IMG/VR virus record: IMGVR_UViG_3300028374_000073 | Span: 1 to 21,727 of that record | Direction: 5' to 3' (one strand) | Length of the DNA stretch: 21,727 nt | Source: a virus | Shown here: in pieces, positions 2,195 to 21,727 of the stretch | Layout: each line of letters begins with the position of its first letter | Numbering within the stretch: position 1 is the first letter of the stretch | Notes under the pieces: model-generated | What the model saw: the letters and a program-made list of their open reading frames with translations, nothing else | Told to the model about the DNA's origin: nothing | Databases searched by the model: none | Position numbers and translations under genes: made by a program

Positions 2195-2463
2195 AGTATG
2201 TTAATCCCCGTAGCAGCTCCTATTCCTACCATTAAGACAAGGGCTACTACCTTAATTACTAACTGCAGACGATCATGTAGCTTGCTTAATTCTTTCTTCA
2301 AAACTAAGACTTCCGTGTCTCGATCCTTTCCCTCAGCTTCATGCTCGTGTTGCCACTTAGTTACATACAAAAGCTCCTGTTTCATGAGGCGTGTTTCTAT
2401 TATCATTTCGGATATCTTATCAATCTTATCCTCCATTCTCTGTAACCGTATTTCATCCACCAC
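2191..2463 (-). CDS. Holin-like membrane protein with N-terminal coiled coil
   Basis: This is a 90-residue protein. Residues 1-66 are strongly charged and heptad-like, predicted to be a coiled coil. Residues about 68-90 form one hydrophobic segment (VVALVLMVGIGAATGI) that ends the protein with almost no tail. The layout resembles small phage membrane proteins annotated as holins or hemolysin XhlA-like proteins. A place between the ejection proteins and the spanin-like gene fits a lysis role. The start is GTG at 2463, chosen because GGAGGT lies 5 bases upstream. The gene overlaps the end of the transglycosylase ejection gene by 11 bases and the start of the spanin-like gene by 4. With only one membrane segment it could instead be a pinholin, a holin regulator or a virion membrane protein. 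Confidence 0.5.
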   Translation of the reverse strand: MVDEIRLQRMEDKIDKISEMIIETRLMKQELLYVTKWQHEHEAEGKDRDTEVLVLKKELSKLHDRLQLVIKVVALVLMVGIGAATGINIL

Positions 2464-5074
2464 TCTCTACCTCCAAAGTACTAAAAAATCTTTCAGAGTA
2501 ATCTTCTTCAGGTGCCGTACCGCGCCATTGTTCTAGAGCAGCAGCTATGTCCCCATCGTTTTCTCTTATATGCTCAGCTAGCATGATCTTAGCAATCTGT
2601 TCGTATAGAGCTTTATCTTCAGGGCTCCTAAGTACACCCGGTCCTCCGTATTCAAAGGTTTTATAGTCAGCAGCAGTGTAAGTCTTTCCATCAATCTCTT
2701 TAGACCAGTCATCTGGAAGATTTTTCCAATCGCCATTCCCCATATCAAGCATCACTTCGCCTTGCTTAGACATCTTTTCAAGGAACGCTGTTTGTGCTGG
2801 TGTAAACAAATCAGATTTTCTAGTCAAGTAATCATCTACAAGCCTCTTTGTTATCTGAGTAGGCCCGTATGCGGAACTGCCCGGTGCGGTTGATATCGTA
2901 GTACGTATAAAGGGATCAGACGCTGCAGCAGTCTCAGCGCTAGACATAGCCTTGTACACAGGGTCCATGGGATCATTGCCATCTAGATTTAAAGTGGCAC
3001 CACTTGGTAAAGTGACTGGTACTTGATCAGGCGCATCCTGCATCCTAGGATTAGCATCAGCATTAGCAGCTGGAGGAGCAGAAGTCTCTACTACAGGCGG
3101 AGCGTCCAGTGCTCCAATAGCCTTATTAAGAGATTCAATTCCTGTACGCATAAGACGAGGATCTTCATCTAACGCGGCCTGAAACTCGTTACGTTGGCTC
3201 GGAGTAGCGCTGCCCTCAGCAACGGCATCTGCTAAGAATGAAAACCTGCGCCTAGGGCGATTAGCTAGAGGGAAATCATTATAGCTTGTCACGTTACTGA
3301 GAGGATCAGGTATCCCATCTGCTACAGATATACCAAGTGCTTCGTACACAGGAAACAGTACCTTGTTGCTACTCTCTAATACACCCAGTCCGTCCATAGC
3401 TGTGAATACTGTGTTAGTACTGCCTAACTTAGCGTTCAAGCTGTTGGCTGCCATCCTGTCTATTTTGTCTTCAGTTGTAGGTACTGCTAGTATGCGATTA
3501 CTGGTAGTATCGTAGGTAATTTGCACGTTACGTGGAGTATTACGCTTCCACTCTTGCACGGTCTGTGCTAAGTAGTCGTCAAGTGCCCCATTAGATATAG
3601 AATCAAACACCATATCTTTTGTATCTTGTGGCAAATTACCAAAAGCTTCTTCGTTACCAATAGCATCAAACCAACGATTGTAAGTTTCAGAAGTAACGGC
3701 TGTTGGGTTAGAGTTAATGTCTTTAGTAACCATTACAAGGGCGTCATTGCCTCTATTAACATCAGCAGCATTACCGGAAGTTAGCGCATCAGGTGCTCCA
3801 TTCAGCCAAGACTGCATCTTCCTGTTGTATGCTTTAGGATCTGTAGTTACGTCAATACCTGTTACTGGATTAGTGGGACTAGTTGTAGCATTCATAGAAT
3901 TAAGCAACTGCTGGGCCAACTTTGTCTGCTCAACTCTCATACTAGGAGGCACATCTTGCATGTCTTTAGTAATGGCGTTAAGTCCAGCAAAGCGCTGAGC
4001 TGCGTCTTGGTCAGCACCATAGATTGCAGCCAATGCCCCCTCTTGAAAGATGTTATTCTCTCTTTGCAGCTGTGTAAAGGTCATCTCCCCACTAGCTACC
4101 ATAGAAGCGTTATCAATGTAGTCTTCTAGTGGCTTATAGAAAGAATTAAACTCTGTCTCGCTCATAGCAGAGTAGGCGTTACGATACTGAGAACGCGTAA
4201 CAGTCTTAAGACTGTCCAAATCTTGCATAGCTTTTGCGCTGGCTGCACCACTGAAAGTTCCGTCATCTCCCATCCCACTTGATGCCAATACAGCCTTTAC
4301 CTGAGCACCAATGAAGTTAGGACTTTCTTTATTAGTGATGGCATTAACAATAGCAGGCCCTATGTTGTTACGTTGCTCAATAGCGTCAAGCTCAATGCCA
4401 CTCTCAATGCTACTAATCACTGCATCTTGGTAGGTGTTTTGTTCCTTAAGAGATAAGTTACGAGAGAAGCGCTCTTCCCATTCTAATGGATTATTCCTTG
4501 CTAAGCTAGGATCTAGTCCGAAGTTATTAAAGCCATACTTAATCCTATTGTCCTGTAATGCCTCTTGTTCTGTCTTATCGAAGGTGCCCATACCTGCACC
4601 ACCGCTACCGAAGTACTGTCCATAGGCTGTACGAAAAGCCTCAGCCCTATTAGGGTTGGCAGCTACTGCACTGCGTAGTTTAGTGGAGGCTAGTTCCCTA
4701 GCACGGTCTCCATTAATAGCTCCTGTCTTACGAGCGTTGAATATCTTCTCAAAGTTAAGGTCTTTAGCTTCAAGAGTTGTGATACTGTTTACGCTATCCT
4801 TACCAAGCATCATCTGCTTTTCATCAAGCTTGCCTGTTGGATTCTCAAACCCAGCAGTATCACCCGGAGTACCTTTCAGCCCTCTAATTGCTTTCTTCTC
4901 AGCTAGAGCGTCACCCCCTTTAATCACCGCGTCTACTACTCCACCTAGTCCTTCTACTAACGCAGTGTTACCAGAAATACGAGTAGCAGCAGAGGTATCA
5001 GAGGCAACTTGCCTAGATACAGGCCGTGGTGTGCCTATCTCTTCCATGTTATTAAAGCTTCTTAAGTCTGCCAT
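2453..5074 (-). CDS. Ejection (internal virion) protein with C-terminal lytic transglycosylase domain
   Basis: This protein (873 residues) probably rides inside the virion and enters the host envelope at infection. The C-terminal part (about 706-870) looks like a soluble lytic transglycosylase domain. E714 in SSAETAA is placed as the catalytic acid. SSAYGPTQI (733-741) matches the family S/A-x-G-x-x-Q-I motif. YGGPG (809-813) and the helix ending EQWRG fit the family end. Such a domain would cut peptidoglycan locally to let DNA through. The first 700 residues are hydrophilic, Ala/Asn/Asp-rich and mostly helical-looking, with no domain I recognise. The start is ATG at 5074, coupled to the preceding gene by TAATG, with GAGGGT upstream. 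In T7 the transglycosylase is at the N-terminus of gp16; here it is at the C-terminus of a different-sized protein. Confidence 0.72.
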   Translation of the reverse strand: MADLRSFNNMEEIGTPRPVSRQVASDTSAATRISGNTALVEGLGGVVDAVIKGGDALAEKKAIRGLKGTPGDTAGFENPTGKLDEKQMMLGKDSVNSITTLEAKDLNFEKIFNARKTGAINGDRARELASTKLRSAVAANPNRAEAFRTAYGQYFGSGGAGMGTFDKTEQEALQDNRIKYGFNNFGLDPSLARNNPLEWEERFSRNLSLKEQNTYQDAVISSIESGIELDAIEQRNNIGPAIVNAITNKESPNFIGAQVKAVLASSGMGDDGTFSGAASAKAMQDLDSLKTVTRSQYRNAYSAMSETEFNSFYKPLEDYIDNASMVASGEMTFTQLQRENNIFQEGALAAIYGADQDAAQRFAGLNAITKDMQDVPPSMRVEQTKLAQQLLNSMNATTSPTNPVTGIDVTTDPKAYNRKMQSWLNGAPDALTSGNAADVNRGNDALVMVTKDINSNPTAVTSETYNRWFDAIGNEEAFGNLPQDTKDMVFDSISNGALDDYLAQTVQEWKRNTPRNVQITYDTTSNRILAVPTTEDKIDRMAANSLNAKLGSTNTVFTAMDGLGVLESSNKVLFPVYEALGISVADGIPDPLSNVTSYNDFPLANRPRRRFSFLADAVAEGSATPSQRNEFQAALDEDPRLMRTGIESLNKAIGALDAPPVVETSAPPAANADANPRMQDAPDQVPVTLPSGATLNLDGNDPMDPVYKAMSSAETAAASDPFIRTTISTAPGSSAYGPTQITKRLVDDYLTRKSDLFTPAQTAFLEKMSKQGEVMLDMGNGDWKNLPDDWSKEIDGKTYTAADYKTFEYGGPGVLRSPEDKALYEQIAKIMLAEHIRENDGDIAAALEQWRGTAPEEDYSERFFSTLEVESGG
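2469..2474 (-). promoter_or_regulatory. Ribosome binding site for the GTG start of the holin-like gene
   Basis: On the minus strand GGAGGT sits 5 bases before the GTG at 2463-2461, inside the last codons of the preceding gene. A second GTG follows immediately, so initiation one codon later is possible. Confidence 0.6.
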
Positions 5075-9872: not shown

Positions 9873-10358
9873 TTACCCGAATATTGATGATAAGAACCCA
9901 CCTTGGGCTTGTGCTGCCGCTGCTTTGGCTTCTAATGTCGCCTTCTGTTGATTTAGTGAAGTGATTCTTTCGCCAACTTCAATAGCTTTATCTATCTGCC
10001 CTATGTTCTGTTGAGTAGTAGATACTATATCTTCTTTAGCACTGCCAAAACTACTGCTGCGAAAAGATCCAGAAGAGGTAGCTGATGCACGTAGAGCTGC
10101 ACTGTTAACTTGACCTTGCCGGAACATCTTGCGTCGTTGTTGCATCATGTTAGCTTTGTCAACGTTAAACTGCTCTCGAAATATCTCATTCTGTACTGAT
10201 GCTGACTGACTCTGTAAATCTGCTACCTCACTACCAGTACTTTGCCCAATTAGTCCCCCCATCAGGGCACCACCGGCTATTAAGCCCCACCCTATAGGAT
10301 TGGACAGAGTTGTAGTAGCTAGTACTGCAGTGCCTGCCACTGATGCTAAGCCTGCCAT
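9873..10358 (-). CDS. Small internal virion (ejection) protein
   Basis: This is a 161-residue protein. Residues 5-42 are hydrophobic and Gly/Ala-rich (for example GWGLIAGGALMGGLIG), able to insert in a membrane. The rest is Gln/Ala/Ser-rich and helical, probably coiled coil, ending in a Phe-Gly tail (FLSSIFG). Small Ala/Gln-rich proteins between the tail-tube B gene and giant core proteins correspond in place to T7 gp14, which forms an outer-membrane channel during ejection. The start is ATG at 10358, overlapping nothing and 1 base after the previous stop, with GAGGGT upstream. Function is assigned from position and composition. Confidence 0.6.
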   Translation of the reverse strand: MAGLASVAGTAVLATTTLSNPIGWGLIAGGALMGGLIGQSTGSEVADLQSQSASVQNEIFREQFNVDKANMMQQRRKMFRQGQVNSAALRASATSSGSFRSSSFGSAKEDIVSTTQQNIGQIDKAIEVGERITSLNQQKATLEAKAAAAQAQGGFLSSIFG

Positions 10359-12484: not shown

Positions 12485-13233
12485 TTAGTTCTTCCTCTAC
12501 CAAAGTTAGTTAGCGTAATACCACCTCTAATCTTAAACTGATTAATAGAAGCTTTAACGCGTGATCGCTCTGCTTGTTGATTTGCTTTCTGATTTACCTC
12601 TTGTGCCAGTACTAGGAATGATCTGCTCTTAGCTTCATTTAGTAAAAGAGTGAACGAATCATTAGGTATGTCAGGTGTGAAGTTATCGGTGTGTGTCCAC
12701 TCTGCCTCTTTTTCTACCAACATAGCCGACTTAGAGTTCTGTATAAAGTCATCTACTTCCTTGTCGTATCCATCAAACACAACGTAGTCATCATCAAAGG
12801 TAGTCCAATATGTAGGTGCCCTGTCATTATGAATACTAAGGTATACCCCACTATCATCTACTACTTCTGTTATGTCTGTCTGACTCTCATCTCGTCCATT
12901 ACTCATGTCAAGAAATTCACTAGGAGTTATGTACGTCATGAGTTTGTATGTATTACGCACGTCACCTAACTTCTTAACATTATACCTAAGTTCTAATACT
13001 TCTTTAACTCCGTCTGCTACTTTGCAGTGAGTAGGCCTAGCTATACTGGCAGCGTTGATTTGAGATAATTGCTTAAGATGATCCCAACTATACAGTGAGA
13101 TTAAGTCGTTGTATGTAGTACGTATAATCTGTGCTACTTGCTGTGCTTCAGGAGTGTCATCAATGGAGTTAACTAGATCACTATCCATATCCGATAGTAT
13201 GTCTTGCACCATCTCCAGTAAGGTGTACTTCAT
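12481..13233 (-). CDS. Tail tubular protein A-like (head-tail adaptor) protein
   Basis: This 250-residue protein has a predominantly helical N-terminal part (DDTPEAQQVAQIIRTTYNDL, residues about 25-44). A beta-containing middle section follows, then a helical C-terminal part (about 195-235). The pattern of an N-terminal helical bundle, a DDDYVVFDGYD hairpin and a long Ala/Gln-rich C-terminal helix is that of T7 gp11-type tail adaptors, which join the portal to the nozzle. It lies just upstream of the nozzle-like gene. The start is ATG at 13233 in an ATGA overlap with the preceding gene, with GGAG about 9 bases upstream. Assignment is by pattern and synteny. Confidence 0.68.
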   Translation of the reverse strand: MKYTLLEMVQDILSDMDSDLVNSIDDTPEAQQVAQIIRTTYNDLISLYSWDHLKQLSQINAASIARPTHCKVADGVKEVLELRYNVKKLGDVRNTYKLMTYITPSEFLDMSNGRDESQTDITEVVDDSGVYLSIHNDRAPTYWTTFDDDYVVFDGYDKEVDDFIQNSKSAMLVEKEAEWTHTDNFTPDIPNDSFTLLLNEAKSRSFLVLAQEVNQKANQQAERSRVKASINQFKIRGGITLTNFGRGRTK

Positions 13234-13889
13234 ACTGTAAACTCCGCGTCACCGCCCAGGGTCCATGAAGATACACTTAGCTTGTCACCAGTATCTTGGC
13301 CAGTATCCCCTGATATTTGTAAAACATCCCCAATAGAGACTGAAATAGATTGTGTGTCAGTCACTGCGCCAGTGACGTCGCTCACTGAAAATGAGATTGC
13401 CAAAACATTATTTTTAAACACTGATACAGTTGCATTGTCTGAGACTGCATCAGATATTACCGATCTGACCGTTCCAGACGCTGTGATAATAACGCTTGGC
13501 CCAAATTGAGTACTGTCTGAGGGCACCTTTAATACATCGCTACTGACGTTATTGCCCTGCATTCTATGTGCCACCCACCTAACAGTAGAAGACGCAGTAA
13601 CTGTTTTACTTCCTATCCTAGCTGAAACCCAAGCATCTTCAGCAGCCCCTGTTTGAAGCTTTTCAGCTCCAAGAGTACCAGTAGCTACTTTATCATTAGT
13701 TACAGCGCCGTTGTCTAGTTTAACAGTGGTTACTGCACTTGGGGCAATGTTTCCTGTATCTACTAAACCAAATTCTAAGGCAGATCCATTGTACTGGTAT
13801 ACATGGTTTGTGCCAGGTGACCCTGTATCTGGGTACCCCTTTGGAGTGTGCTTTTCTGAGTCAGTAATAGTTTTATGGTCTATCGCCAT
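13230..13889 (-). CDS. Fiber-like virion protein (head or tail fiber candidate)
   Basis: This is a 219-residue protein. After about 35 residues of start region (HVYQYNGSALEFGLVDTGNI) comes a repeat-like stretch, AVTTVKLDNGAVTNDKVATG, typical of the shafts of phage fibers and of collar/adhesin proteins. The C-terminal half (about 95-219) is Ser/Val/Thr-rich and looks like one beta-sandwich domain. The best start is ATG at 13889, with GGGGAA about 6 bases before it; a TTG four codons upstream falls in the terminator region. It is the first gene after the capsid-cassette terminator. It could be a head fiber, as in phi29 gp8.5, or a minor tail fiber. The exact role is unknown. Confidence 0.6.
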   Translation of the reverse strand: MAIDHKTITDSEKHTPKGYPDTGSPGTNHVYQYNGSALEFGLVDTGNIAPSAVTTVKLDNGAVTNDKVATGTLGAEKLQTGAAEDAWVSARIGSKTVTASSTVRWVAHRMQGNNVSSDVLKVPSDSTQFGPSVIITASGTVRSVISDAVSDNATVSVFKNNVLAISFSVSDVTGAVTDTQSISVSIGDVLQISGDTGQDTGDKLSVSSWTLGGDAEFTV

Positions 13890-13902
13890 GTGTTTCCCCA
13901 AT

Positions 13903-13936
13903 AAAAAAGGGAGGGAAGGTTTCCCTTGCCACTCCC
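13903..13936 (-). terminator. Intrinsic terminator after the capsid cassette
   Basis: On the minus strand the outer stem GGGAG pairs with CTCCC (13932-13936 with 13909-13913). An inner stem AAGG/CCTT closes a GAAA tetraloop, with GG/CC pairs and small bulges between. The hairpin runs straight into six T residues (the A-run at 13903-13908). It lies between the decoration-like gene and the fiber-like gene, where it would stop or thin transcription after the capsid genes. Confidence 0.8.
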
Positions 13937-13956
13937 TATAGTCCTTACCTTAAAGG

Positions 13957-14427
13957 TTATGCACCTTCTGGCATATACTCTACAATAGTGCGTAGCTTAC
14001 CACCAGTCAGACTTCCACTACTGCCGCCAGTAGCGGCCAGAGTAAGTGCTAGCTCAGCACCTGCACTACCTACCGAAGTAGGAGTAGTAACAGCGTCAAC
14101 ACCTGCTGTGCCTCGTACAAGGCCACCCATAGATACGTCAGTACCAGTAAAGTCACCGATGACAGTACTAATGTCAAAGCCAGTACGATCACCATCTTGT
14201 GTAACTGCTTCAATAATCTCAGTAGTGACTTTTTGGATCTTGGCGTATGCTGGAATATCCAATACTAGATTGTCTGCACCAGCAGTAGGTAGATCGGTTA
14301 CATCATAAGAATAGACTACCGTAGCAACTCCACCCTTATATCCGTACGCTCCACCAAACCGGCCATTAGTAGTACGAGTACCATAATGTACTTCTACGCC
14401 CCGAACTGGGGCTGTTTGAAAAGACAT
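13957..14427 (-). CDS. Head decoration-like or minor capsid protein
   Basis: This 156-residue protein is small, Gly/Thr/Val/Ala-rich and beta-predicted, with no charged coiled coil. Examples are GGSSGSLTGGKLRTIVEYMP at the end and RFGGAYGYKGGV near residue 25. It follows the major capsid gene after 17 bases and ends before a strong terminator, so it would be made at capsid-like levels. These traits suit a decoration (cement) protein that binds the outside of the capsid. I have no motif that proves this. The start is ATG at 14427 with GAGGAAAC upstream. Confidence 0.6.
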   Translation of the reverse strand: MSFQTAPVRGVEVHYGTRTTNGRFGGAYGYKGGVATVVYSYDVTDLPTAGADNLVLDIPAYAKIQKVTTEIIEAVTQDGDRTGFDISTVIGDFTGTDVSMGGLVRGTAGVDAVTTPTSVGSAGAELALTLAATGGSSGSLTGGKLRTIVEYMPEGA

Positions 14428-14444
14428 AATTTGTTTCCTCTATA

Positions 14445-15383
14445 TTAGACAGTTGCCAAAGTGTAAATAACACCAAGGGTGTCTACACGCTGAATGCCAA
14501 AGCCATCACGAGTAGTAGTTTGAAACTTCTCACGACGCTCTTCATGGTCACGCCAGCCTTCAATAGAAGGAGCCACTCGTTGAGCGTACATAGCCGGTGT
14601 GTGTTGATCTGACATCAGAGACATTGCAATGTTTGCAACACCATCAGTGATGGTAGTAGTGCCATCGTCAAATGACCCTGTAGGCAGATAGTTGGTAGTC
14701 CAGATATCAAATCCATAGATGTTACGAATGAACTTGTGGCTCTGTGCAAAACCTTCAGTGACAATACCTTCAAACATGGGGTTGTCAGAAGTAACTACTT
14801 GAGCCAACTGGTTAAAGGTAAACTCTACAGACGGATCAACGAATAGCACACGGCCCTGAGCAGGTACACGGGCTTTATCAAATGCGTACTTCATACGACT
14901 GATATCTTCTAGTGTAATAACACCACTAGTACCCGTACCGGGAATGCGGTGATTAACACCGTTGATTACGTTTGGATCACCTGGGGTTTGTCCGGCATTA
15001 AGTGCTTTGAGAAAGTTAGTCTCATGCCATTCGGCAAGAGCAATAGCTGACTCTTGTGCGCGAGCTGCTTCCAGAGCTGCAATACGACGAAAGTCTTGAC
15101 GAACTTCATCGCTAACAAACCAAGCATCACCAACGTACTCGTTGATGGACATGGTTACTGTACCAGAATCAATCGCAGTAAAGTTCAACGGAATACCTTC
15201 AGCTACTTCTTGAATAGTAGCAGCGCCGGTAGTCGCGATGTTCAAAGTTGTACCATCAGCAAAGTCTGATACATTACGATACATGTTGTCAGGCAACATA
15301 ATATCAGGAAGAGTTTGGATTAGAAACTCTGAGTATTTCTGTGCGTCGTTAAACGCATCTGCATTTGAGCGTTGAATAGCCAT
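14445..15383 (-). CDS. Major capsid protein
   Basis: This protein (312 residues) forms the icosahedral shell. It fits the HK97-fold type: a helical N-terminal arm (DAFNDAQKYSEFLIQTL), then a beta hairpin (E-loop) region around GTTLNIATTGAATIQEV. A long spine helix follows (RQDFRRIAALEAARAQESAI, about 118-137). The P-domain and A-domain segments include RVLFVDPSVEF and GFDIWTTNYLP. The length is typical for podovirus capsid proteins. It follows the scaffold gene by 8 bases, with GGAAA before ATG at 15383. Position between scaffold and decoration protein, downstream of a strong promoter, supports the call. Confidence 0.88.
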   Translation of the reverse strand: MAIQRSNADAFNDAQKYSEFLIQTLPDIMLPDNMYRNVSDFADGTTLNIATTGAATIQEVAEGIPLNFTAIDSGTVTMSINEYVGDAWFVSDEVRQDFRRIAALEAARAQESAIALAEWHETNFLKALNAGQTPGDPNVINGVNHRIPGTGTSGVITLEDISRMKYAFDKARVPAQGRVLFVDPSVEFTFNQLAQVVTSDNPMFEGIVTEGFAQSHKFIRNIYGFDIWTTNYLPTGSFDDGTTTITDGVANIAMSLMSDQHTPAMYAQRVAPSIEGWRDHEERREKFQTTTRDGFGIQRVDTLGVIYTLATV

Positions 15384-15391
15384 TTAGTTTC

Positions 15392-16081
15392 CTAGCCTCT
15401 ATTTAGTTTTTGCTTCTCTTCAATCTGTTTCATAAGGTTTATAGCATCTTTGCTACGACCAGTACGCAACGGATTGGGAAGCTTGTCTTCATGTTGGTTA
15501 TACTGAAGTGCTTCAGTATTAACTGAAGAGGTACCAAATCCACTAGTGCTAGCTTGCTTAGGCTTGAGGCCGATCAGGTTATTGAATGCTTCGACGCTGT
15601 TAGCGGCTACACCCAATAAGAAGTCTTTGCTCACGTTAAGCTCTTTAGCTTTAGTGTTAAGTAGTTCCTCGGTCTTATCTCCATGAACTGCTGCAACACC
15701 CTCAATAGCTTTACGCTTGTTTTGATCTTGAGTAGCTGCTTCGTTCTCTGCAGACATACGACGCCGGAATTCTTCATACATTGAATCCAAATCAACGGCA
15801 TCGGCTCTGGCAGCATCAGACTCTTGCACTTCAGTGGTCGCTGGGGCTGGGTCTCTAGGCTTGCCATAGTTCTTAATTAGGTCTTCCATCCTTTCTTTCT
15901 CCGTCTTGAGGTTTTGATTTTCTTGCTCTAGGGTTTGGATATGCTCTTGGGCATGAGCCGCACCTTTGAGTGCCTCTTCTGGAGAAGTATACTTAGGCTC
16001 TCCACTAGTATTAACAATGGATTGCAACAAAGTATCTAGTTCAGATGGTTGTTCAGTGGTTTCCACGGCTTGGTCAGTCAT
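15392..16081 (-). CDS. Capsid scaffolding protein
   Basis: This 229-residue protein is highly charged, with no cysteine and few aromatics. Residues 40-72 form a clear heptad coiled coil (HIQTLEQENQNLKTEKERME). A second helical stretch, Arg/Lys/Glu-rich, lies around 104-150. The C-terminus is basic and Gln/Lys-rich (NLMKQIEEKQKLNRG), as in scaffolds whose tail binds the capsid protein. It directly precedes the major capsid gene. It is the first gene after the strong sigma-70 promoter, with GAGGA 5 bases before ATG at 16081. A roughly 37-base leader is implied. Confidence 0.82.
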   Translation of the reverse strand: MTDQAVETTEQPSELDTLLQSIVNTSGEPKYTSPEEALKGAAHAQEHIQTLEQENQNLKTEKERMEDLIKNYGKPRDPAPATTEVQESDAARADAVDLDSMYEEFRRRMSAENEAATQDQNKRKAIEGVAAVHGDKTEELLNTKAKELNVSKDFLLGVAANSVEAFNNLIGLKPKQASTSGFGTSSVNTEALQYNQHEDKLPNPLRTGRSKDAINLMKQIEEKQKLNRG

Positions 16082-16124
16082 GTAAATCCTCGTTTATTAA
16101 TGTAAATGTATTACTTATGAAGGT

Positions 16125-16153
16125 ATTATACCATATTCTTAATAAGAAGTCAA
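16125..16153 (-). promoter_or_regulatory. Sigma-70 promoter of the scaffold-capsid cassette
   Basis: On the minus strand the -35 TTGACT (16148-16153) is followed by a 17-base spacer and a perfect -10 TATAAT (16125-16130), preceded by TGG, an extended -10. Spacing and both boxes are near-consensus for the housekeeping sigma factor. The start would fall near 16118, about 37 bases before the scaffold ATG. The -35 box overlaps the end of the upstream 83-residue gene. Confidence 0.88.
16136..16148. promoter_or_regulatory. Palindrome inside the promoter spacer, possible operator
   Basis: TTCTTA and TAAGAA flank a single central base, a perfect 13-base inverted repeat between the -35 and -10 boxes. 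A regulator bound here would block the promoter. It is AT-rich and short, so chance or coding constraint (it covers the stop of the 83-residue gene) could also explain it. Confidence 0.35.
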
Positions 16154-16390
16154 GCCTTTTAACAAACTTTTTACTTCCTTGTATGCTTTAATCTTTCCCA
16201 TGATGTACGCATGTTCGTGGCTCCAGTCTCCTGTAAAGGATTCCCTTCCTAGGGCTAGTGTAAGCTCAGCTTCAATCATGGAGTTAAGTATATTATCCTC
16301 CTTATCAAATACCATACTAGAGCTATTTAGTACTTTTTCAAATTCTTCCTTAGCTTTGCCTTCAAGCCCACTAACCCATTGGTGTTTCAT
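16139..16390 (-). CDS. Small protein between portal and scaffold, unknown function
   Basis: This is an 83-residue, mostly helical, charged protein; residues about 10-50 are Glu/Lys-rich and 60-83 form an amphipathic helix. It is not recognised. The start ATG at 16390 is in an ATGA overlap with the portal gene, so it is coupled to portal translation. Its last codons hold the -35 box and spacer of the capsid promoter. Small helical proteins between portal and scaffold may be assembly factors, but that is only inference. Confidence 0.65.
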   Translation of the reverse strand: MKHQWVSGLEGKAKEEFEKVLNSSSMVFDKEDNILNSMIEAELTLALGRESFTGDWSHEHAYIMGKIKAYKEVKSLLKGLTSY

Positions 16391-20215: not shown

Positions 20216-20710
20216 TCAAGAATGAGTTTCAACATAGTCATCAAACTCCTCTTTTAGTGCATCGAATTTCTGGTTAACCTCTTGTAAGGCTTTAATCAGG
20301 GGACCAATCAATTCATCGTAGCCTATACTCAAAACGTCTTCACCACCTGACACTTTATGGTCTTGGTAACCACCGAAATCAATTCCACTCTCTGCGATTA
20401 CTTCAGCGACTTCCTGAGCAATTACCCCGTGGTGATATCTACTACGTTTATGCGTTCCGTCATGTATAAGGTTTTCGTGTTTTACCGCGATCAACCACTC
20501 AGCACAATCATTTTCATACTGAGATAGTGCCAACTCATGCGCTTGAATATCTTGTTCTGTTGCATCATCTTTCAACGGTTCAGGTTCGGTAGGGGCATCG
20601 GGCTTGTAATCATCACGTAGATCCCAACGGTAGTCCACCGGACGTAGGGCAGTAATAAAATCTAACCCCAGTATCGTATCTCTCACGTCTGCTTTATCAC
20701 GCAAATCAGA
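20216..20710 (-). other. Peptidase_S74 intramolecular chaperone domain, predicted self-cleavage boundary
   Basis: The conserved Ser-Asp of RSDLRDK is encoded at 20705-20710 (Ser codon 20708-20710), the site used by S74 fibers for autocleavage just before Ser. Cleavage would release about 164 residues. Between the first block (DFITALRPVDYRWD) and the HHGVIAQEV block lies an acidic segment of about 60 residues. The domain ends in an IKALQEVNQKFDALKEEF coiled coil, suited to trimerisation. Confidence 0.75.
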
Positions 20711-21727
20711 GCGATCTTGGACTGTACCATATACATACGTTGTAGTGCCACTGTTACCAAGCTGAACTTGGTCTGAGGCTGTTACTTGAGCGTCACTGCC
20801 AAAGCCTGATGTGTTGTTGTAACTTGTGTTGGAAGCCAGTGCTTCATGGCCAGTGGCTGTGTTACTGTGCCCTGTTGTGTTGGAATACAGTGCGTTCCTG
20901 CCAGAGGCGGTGTTAGTGTCCCCTGTTGTATTGGAGCGTAGTGCGTCATAGCCGTGGGCTGTGTTTCTTATCCCTGTTGTGTTGGAAAACAGTGCGGCAT
21001 AGCCGGTGGCTGTGTTACTGCCTCCTGTTGTGTTGGAAAACAGTGCGGCAAAGCCGGTGGCTGTGTTTCTTATCCCTGTTGTGTTGTCACGTAGTGCTCG
21101 ATAGCCGGTGGCTGTGTTATTGATACCTGTTGTGTTGGAATACAGTGCTTCATAGCCGTTGGCTGTGTTGTTGTCGCCGTCTGTGTTGGAAAACAGTGCG
21201 GCATAGCCGGCGGCTACGTTACCGTCCCCGTCTGCGTTGGAAAACAGTGCGGCAAAGCCGGCGGCTGTGTTTCTTATCCCTGTTGTGTTGTCACGTAGTG
21301 CTCGATAGCCGGTGGCTGTGTTATTGATACCTGTTGTGTTGGAATACAGTGCTTCATAGCCGTTGGCTGTGTTGTTGTCGCCGTCTGTGTTGGAAAACAG
21401 TGCGTTATAGCCGTTGGCTGTGTTTCTGCTACCGGTTGTGTTGAAAACCAGTGCGTCATAGCCGTGGGCTGTGTTATAGTTCCCTGTTGTGTTGTCACGT
21501 AGTGCTTGGTAGCCGTTGGCGGTGTTTTGAATCCCTTCTGTGTTGGAAAGCAGTGCGTAATAGCCGGTGGCTGTGTTACTATAACCTGTTGTATTGGAGC
21601 GTAGTGCGTCATAGCCGTGGGCTGTGTTTCTTATCCCTGTTGTGTTGGAACTTAGGGATTGAGTGCCATAGCTAGTATTACTAGACACCCCACCCCCGCC
21701 ATAATATGTGATCTCGCCAGTAAACCC
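20216..21727 (-). CDS. Tail fiber with tandem repeats and S74 self-cleaving chaperone domain (5' end outside window)
   Basis: The frame runs open to the right edge: 503 codons before the stop, including 13 upstream of the GTG at 21688 that read into a Gly-rich stretch (TYYGGGGV). The true start is therefore outside the window. Sixteen tandem 17-residue repeats of the form SNTTG-x-x-NTA-x-GY-x-AL follow. They resemble beta-helical or trimeric shaft repeats of phage fibers. The C-terminus is an intramolecular chaperone of the Peptidase_S74 family (RSDLRDK, then a HHGVIAQEVAEV block) ending in a short coiled coil. Such fibers trimerise, cut themselves before the Ser of the RSD motif, and then release the chaperone. 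It sits upstream of the terminase genes, 36 bases apart. It is the likely host-recognition protein. Confidence 0.85.
   Translation of the reverse strand, partial: GFTGEITYYGGGGVSSNTSYGTQSLSSNTTGIRNTAHGYDALRSNTTGYSNTATGYYALLSNTEGIQNTANGYQALRDNTTGNYNTAHGYDALVFNTTGSRNTANGYNALFSNTDGDNNTANGYEALYSNTTGINNTATGYRALRDNTTGIRNTAAGFAALFSNADGDGNVAAGYAALFSNTDGDNNTANGYEALYSNTTGINNTATGYRALRDNTTGIRNTATGFAALFSNTTGGSNTATGYAALFSNTTGIRNTAHGYDALRSNTTGDTNTASGRNALYSNTTGHSNTATGHEALASNTSYNNTSGFGSDAQVTASDQVQLGNSGTTTYVYGTVQDRSDLRDKADVRDTILGLDFITALRPVDYRWDLRDDYKPDAPTEPEPLKDDATEQDIQAHELALSQYENDCAEWLIAVKHENLIHDGTHKRSRYHHGVIAQEVAEVIAESGIDFGGYQDHKVSGGEDVLSIGYDELIGPLIKALQEVNQKFDALKEEFDDYVETHS
20834..21649 (-). repeat. 51-base tandem repeat array, 16 units, in the tail fiber shaft
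   Basis: Sixteen in-frame 51-base units encode 17-residue repeats. Conserved positions are Asn-Thr at 2-3, Gly at 5, Asn-Thr-Ala at 8-10, Gly at 12 and Ala-Leu at 15-16. The first and fourteenth units are identical over all 51 bases. Partial, decayed units flank the array on both sides (SNTSY at each end). Conservation at DNA level, not only protein level, suggests recent expansion or recombination. Confidence 0.9.
21032..21404 (-). repeat. Higher-order duplication inside the fiber array
   Basis: The 169 bases at 21032-21200 recur at 21236-21404, offset 204 bases (four units), with a single mismatch (21058 T versus 21262 C). This is a recent four-unit duplication or gene conversion within the array. 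Confidence 0.9.

Follow-up and report, generated by a model that had tools for sequence, protein, structure and literature searches.

In this work we have analysed 21,727 nucleotides of viral DNA (the window, by which we mean this whole stretch) and have found that its scaffold, major capsid and 156-aa genes lie between a rare sigma-70 type promoter and the strongest terminator-like site of the late strand. We consider it likely, with a probability of roughly 0.7, that host RNA polymerase reads the late arm and that the extra promoter and a partial terminator raise the mRNA for scaffold and capsid over that for terminase and portal as well as that for the tail. According to this model, the host enzyme would transcribe the late arm leftwards, starting both upstream and at 16118; the promoter would add transcripts beginning just before the scaffold gene, the partial terminator would halt most polymerases after the 156-aa gene, and the tail genes would be made by read-through. 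The extra promoter would therefore place scaffold/capsid mRNA above terminase/portal mRNA, and the terminator would place it above tail mRNA. The observation is right, the mechanism likely and its kind already known: a promoter-terminator cassette is ordinary, and the more interesting result is the pattern of hairpins that we found in related phages.

Table. Elements and genes of the capsid cassette and its immediate neighbours, in window coordinates
Feature	Position	Strand	Remarks
Gene of 83 aa, located between portal and scaffold and not part of the cassette	16139..16390	(-)	phrog_8956, unknown function
Sigma-70 type promoter, TTGACT-17-TATAAT, extended -10 (TGGTATAAT)	16125..16153	(-)	11/12 consensus match
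Predicted mRNA leader, ~37 nt, between a start near 16118 and the scaffold start codon	16082..16118	(-)	inferred from the position of the -10
Scaffold gene, 229 aa	15392..16081	(-)	phrog_7931
Major capsid gene, 312 aa	14445..15383	(-)	major head protein phrog_267, 2.9e-30; 116 phage records match
156-aa gene, role unproven	13957..14427	(-)	family adjoins the capsid gene in many relatives
Predicted intrinsic terminator: 11-pair hairpin 13936-13909, then six T 13908-13903	13903..13936	(-)	terminator scans
Next gene, 223 aa from TTG	13230..13901	(-)	phrog_892 (tail fiber) weakly matched, 1.4e-5; would need read-through

The window covers the late arm of a podophage, whose late genes are encoded on the minus strand. 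Reading leftwards, the series opens with a tail spike type gene and a 171-aa gene (by position only, the small terminase) and continues with the large terminase, portal, the 83-aa gene, scaffold, the major capsid protein (MCP) and the 156-aa and 223-aa genes; further left lie two tail genes resembling the tubular A and B genes of relatives, and then internal virion proteins. The first two thirds of the tail spike type gene (20216-21688) are made of repeated short NTTG..NTA.GY.AL..NT units and its C-terminal part matches tail fiber families. Two late genes, of 873 aa (2453-5074) and 161 aa (9873-10358), gave no PHROG or Pfam match, the product of the former having no cysteine; Rfam and tRNA searches also returned no match. 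A plus-strand ribonucleotide reductase gene (89-1807) meets the late arm head to head, and the junction at about 1811-1837 holds a hairpin with T-runs on both strands, with a terminator-like site near 1811. Two opposed arms with a terminator between them are a trait described for cobaviruses, bidirectional in their case (PMC6775973, available text), and the window has both the opposed arms and a similar junction hairpin. The MCP is 30-51% identical to its counterparts in 116 phage records (maximum 50.9%); 22 of the 24 records that were opened are classified as Zobellviridae and two carry no family. Judged by its sequence the capsid protein is Zobellviridae-like, and the late order portal, small gene, scaffold, MCP is the same in the window and in Zobellviridae relatives. 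The family placement uses capsid and portal relatives together with gene order, and the tree the capsid only. A 29-kb sibling contig, different at 4 of 6970 compared bases, extends past the left end of the window, where the recognisable genes encode a DNA polymerase, a helicase-like ATPase, exonucleases, an endonuclease and a gamma-glutamyl cyclotransferase-like protein. In the early arm of the sibling contig (L067, 13896-13997), a 95-nt A/T-rich gap contains a pair of strong promoter matches that oppose each other. The one with the higher score, TTGACA-17-TGATATAAT (16.4), faces against the flanking early genes, so that antisense RNA would result.

Within the cassette, the original prediction had named scaffold, major capsid and decoration-like genes. 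The first two names stand, the family phrog_7931 being unnamed in PHROGs and several homologues of the scaffold gene being annotated as scaffold protein. The third is unconfirmed: the 156-aa protein gave no PHROG, Pfam or PDB match, and its two structure models (pLDDT 52 and 54), mostly strands, were too poor for a fold search.

The promoter is the sole site in the window, on either strand, that matches at least 11 of the 12 consensus bases. Its TG sits one base upstream of the -10 and its -35 overlaps the final codons of the 83-aa gene. Shuffles of the whole window held a mean of 0.545 sites of at least 11/12 and 0.025 with an extended -10 (5 of 200 shuffles have one); when only the local 89 nt were shuffled, a site of at least 11/12 appeared in 19 of 5000 cases and one with the TG in none of 5000. 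With a weight matrix the promoter scored 15.5, the runner-up on the late strand 11.3. Weaker sigma-70 matches occur at chance level, since between 5000 and 21727 there are 32 sites of at least 9/12 and 32.6 are expected; the promoter ranks best among them. It has a -35, a spacer within 16-18 nt and a near-consensus -10, and it stands above chance. The late-strand scan found no promoter of comparable strength between scaffold and capsid. Strength of this order would not in itself limit a promoter to the late phase of infection.

The terminator hairpin has a GC-rich stem that is interrupted by two single-base bulges and capped by a GAAA loop, and it runs directly into the T-run, as is characteristic of intrinsic terminators. 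Its predicted energy is -15.7 kcal/mol, or -17.8 once the first T pairs. Among the 20 sites found when 12.3 kb were scanned it ranks first, as it does across the late strand, where the second-best terminator-like site (-15.4) is the one at the arm junction near 1811. Folded as one piece, the 66 nt around it gave a z of -0.90, with 32 of 200 shuffles folding equally well, and a general terminator scanner saw only a 6-pair stem here, among 15 sites (9.8 expected). Both elements which the original prediction had placed at the two ends of the cassette, the near-consensus promoter and the hairpin terminator, are thus borne out as sequence features. For the 223-aa gene, the ATG at 13889, which lies after the T-run with GGGGA, a likely ribosome site, ahead of it, is a likelier start than the TTG. 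The string ACTATAGGGAG at 13942-13932, which we take to be the T7 promoter core, was considered as a phage-polymerase promoter and rejected as chance, there being a single exact copy and fewer near matches (5) than expected (8.5).

Is the cassette autonomous, as had been claimed? This is overstated. On the late strand upstream of the promoter (about 18227-16077), the best of three terminator-like sites, within portal, reaches only -8.0 kcal/mol, so that terminase and portal transcripts should enter the cassette. Past the terminator the late strand has no strong promoter (next best 11.3), and the tail genes should therefore depend on read-through.

We then compared 55 loci, namely the window, 24 of the 116 phage records and 30 IMG/VR loci. 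Of 63 IMG/VR loci, 50 had a capsid match; from these were removed 5 that ran past the contig end, 11 near-duplicates picked by eye (L001, L002, L003, L005, L007, L021, L022, L024, L027, L035 and L060) and 4 without a usable next gene (L028, L029, L039 and L046). Membership of the window's clade and the comparison with random windows come from 54 loci and the other counts from 55. Promoters with a matrix score of at least 13 are called strong and those of at least 10.5 middling, and the control gene ends (n=94) are those followed by a gap of 40-400 nt. L030 has a stop inside the capsid reading. The siblings L001 (4 of 6970 bases different) and L002 and L003 (about 1.3%) have an identical promoter core, and L003 has one T fewer in the terminator run; they are too close to the window to inform on conservation.

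The relatives lend more support to the hairpin than to the promoter. In 48 of the 55 loci, counts that are not independent since related rows remain, the module ends in a hairpin of -14 kcal/mol or stronger, compared with 10 of the 94 control gene ends. The number includes three Cobavirinae loci (L087, L088 and L090; L087 is SIO1) for which the module end was set behind the capsid gene, since the gene that follows it in L088 and L090 is unmatched to the 156-aa family, a choice made once the hairpins had been seen; counted after the next gene they give -12.4, -9.0 and -9.2, and the total falls to 45/55. For 44 of the 55 loci, the module-end hairpin is the strongest among all gene ends of the locus; of the 478 other ends, 32 are equally strong. 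Against 24 random windows it came out ahead of every one in 45 of 54 loci. In RIO-1 (L084), one of the seven loci with a weaker hairpin, a terminator of -18.0 lies slightly further along in the same gap, and in L041 an extra gene is followed by a hairpin of -24.0; in the other five, L004 (-11.0), L010, L030, L031 and L037, the hairpins remain weak. A run of at least four T near the stem was found at 20/55 module ends vs 19/478 other gene ends, and at 16/23 in the window's clade vs 4/32 outside it, which takes a minimum of 7 changes on the capsid tree; L013 has the hairpin without such a run. In several loci a ribosome site comes directly after a T-poor hairpin. The comparison suggests that the hairpin is widely shared and that the T-run comes and goes.

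Promoters at the module are fewer. A strong one stands upstream of scaffold in 5 of 55 loci (the window, MW202697, MEP402, MEP401 and L012) and after the capsid gene in 3 (the Cobavirinae SIO1, ICBM2 and P12053L, 65-74 nt past the gene); middling ones add three before scaffold (ICP2, RIO-1 and VpV262) and two after the capsid gene, and 42 loci have neither kind at either module edge, L004 and L013 among them, which are near the window in the capsid tree. Promoter class needs at least 5 changes on that tree. The -35 lies within the last codons of the small gene in the window, L012 and ICP2; in MW202697, MEP401 and MEP402 the best promoter is one small gene further upstream, ahead of that gene. 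The promoters of the window and MEP402 have 27 of 31 bases in common, and 10 of the first 14 spacer bases agree, as 285 of 20,000 shuffles also do. The 55 loci hold 15 strong promoters on the coding strand and 3 on the opposite strand. The interval before scaffold makes up 8.1% of the sequence and holds five of the 15 (binomial 0.005), and the two module edges together make up 10.3% and hold eight (4e-5), both values being too small because the loci are related and the second interval was added after the Cobavirinae had been seen. In MEP401 and MEP402 (L073 3013-3052; L074 at the same place) the predicted start nearly coincides with the annotated small gene's start codon, which would leave almost no leader. 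Nine gammaproteobacterial or oyster-derived phages (L069-L071, L075-L077 and L080-L082) have an A/T-rich gap of 98-163 nt before scaffold with no sigma-70 site above 9/12, possibly another kind of late promoter, and in GP100 (L079) the pre-scaffold gap carries an annotated tRNA-Asn.

Could the hairpin act mainly on the RNA, by blocking 3' exonucleases or marking a processing end and so stabilising the capsid mRNA, with termination as a lineage-specific addition? Strong hairpins outnumber T-runs in the 55 loci by 48 to 20, with T-runs in 4 of 32 loci outside the window's clade, and the ribosome sites directly behind T-poor hairpins point the same way; however, the T-run of the window is perfect and such runs are enriched at module ends, and we regard this explanation as unlikely for the window. 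Alternatively, the promoter might be a chance match, in which case the cassette would be transcribed from upstream only and the terminator alone would set the ratio of capsid to tail. This would accord with the chance level of weaker sites in the window and with the 42 relatives that have no recognisable promoter, but the rarity of the site with its extended -10 in shuffled sequence and the counterparts in ICP2, L012, MW202697, MEP401 and MEP402 make it very improbable.

Which polymerase would read the late arm? A phage-modified or phage-encoded polymerase or sigma factor might take over late transcription, the sigma-70 site being an early or leftover promoter. The phage phiEco32, also without a polymerase, works via sigma factors (according to the available text of the Klyazma paper, PMC9960094), our sequence leaves part of the genome unseen, and several of the early genes match no family. 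Nevertheless, Pfam gave no RNA polymerase or sigma factor family among 29 proteins, and no RNA polymerase-like ORF was found in the window or the sibling contig part (about 34 kb of an incomplete genome). A search with PF00940, also without a match, says nothing, since the control genomes gave none either. The 1597-aa protein contains no cysteine, an absence which one paper, in its available part, uses as a hint for a virion RNA polymerase; we think that role unlikely here, as the protein has no Pfam family and matches an internal virion protein (phrog_12003). In the text available to us, Zobellviridae (PMC9960094) and SIO1 (PMC6775973) are described as lacking an RNA polymerase. We therefore hold a late phage factor to be improbable and transcription of the cassette by the host enzyme, as originally proposed, to be likely.

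Host transcription with an added promoter and a leaky terminator gives a testable account of how T7 relatives without a polymerase could make many shell proteins per genome using host signals alone, and it points to a hairpin position common to many such phages. Perhaps what a broad podophage lineage has conserved is the strong hairpin that closes the capsid module on its 3' side, retained while its sequence, the neighbouring genes, the promoter and the T-run changed. It would be an old device acting on the capsid mRNA at RNA level, possibly at the place homologous to T-phi of T7, and intrinsic termination and sigma-70 promoters, on either side of the capsid genes, would have been acquired on more than one occasion; we offer this tentatively, as an idea somewhat more likely to be wrong than right. 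We did not find this hairpin position described in the open-licence literature searched or in the available text of PMC6775973, PMC5592923, PMC3080317, PMC9960094, PMC10580990, PMC10747016 and PMC10386132; the supplement of the cobavirus paper lists predicted terminators and may hold part of it.

The analogy with the T7 gene 10 terminator, part of the original prediction, is supported by the T7 layout (PMC5592923, in the text available). T7 has promoters ahead of genes 9 and 10 and the sole terminator for the phage polymerase, T-phi, after gene 10, genes 11 and 12 being expressed by read-through; like the window, it thus has a promoter before scaffold, a partial terminator ending the capsid genes and tail tube genes reached by read-through. 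Unlike the window, whose sigma-70 consensus predicts the host polymerase, T7 uses its own enzyme and has an extra promoter between scaffold and capsid, and it is only in the window that the 156-aa and 223-aa genes flank the terminator. In a T7-like Pseudomonas phage, gene 10 is followed by a rho-independent terminator and gene 1.3 by a hairpin without poly-T, at a usual place for a terminator (PMC3080317, available text). Closer to the window, Vibrio phage ICP2 (Zobellviridae, HQ641345) carries a sigma-70 promoter, annotated by the depositors, that overlaps the end of the small pre-scaffold gene, and a terminator-like hairpin behind the gene that comes after capsid, whereas its promoter is weaker (TTGACT-16-TAGAAT) and a second, stronger terminator-like site directly follows the capsid gene. 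The Methylophilales phages MEP401 and MEP402 share TTGACT-17-TGGTATAAT and a related gene of the 156-aa family followed by a hairpin, but their promoter lies upstream of the small gene, not after it, and the hairpin has no run of four T. The Cobavirinae SIO1, ICBM2 and P12053L likewise have a module-end hairpin, the locus's best promoter at a module edge and two opposed arms with a terminator between them. Their promoter, however, lies just beyond the hairpin that follows the capsid gene and therefore serves the next genes, not the capsid; in these three loci (L087, L088 and L090) transcription would stop at the capsid hairpin and restart for the next genes.
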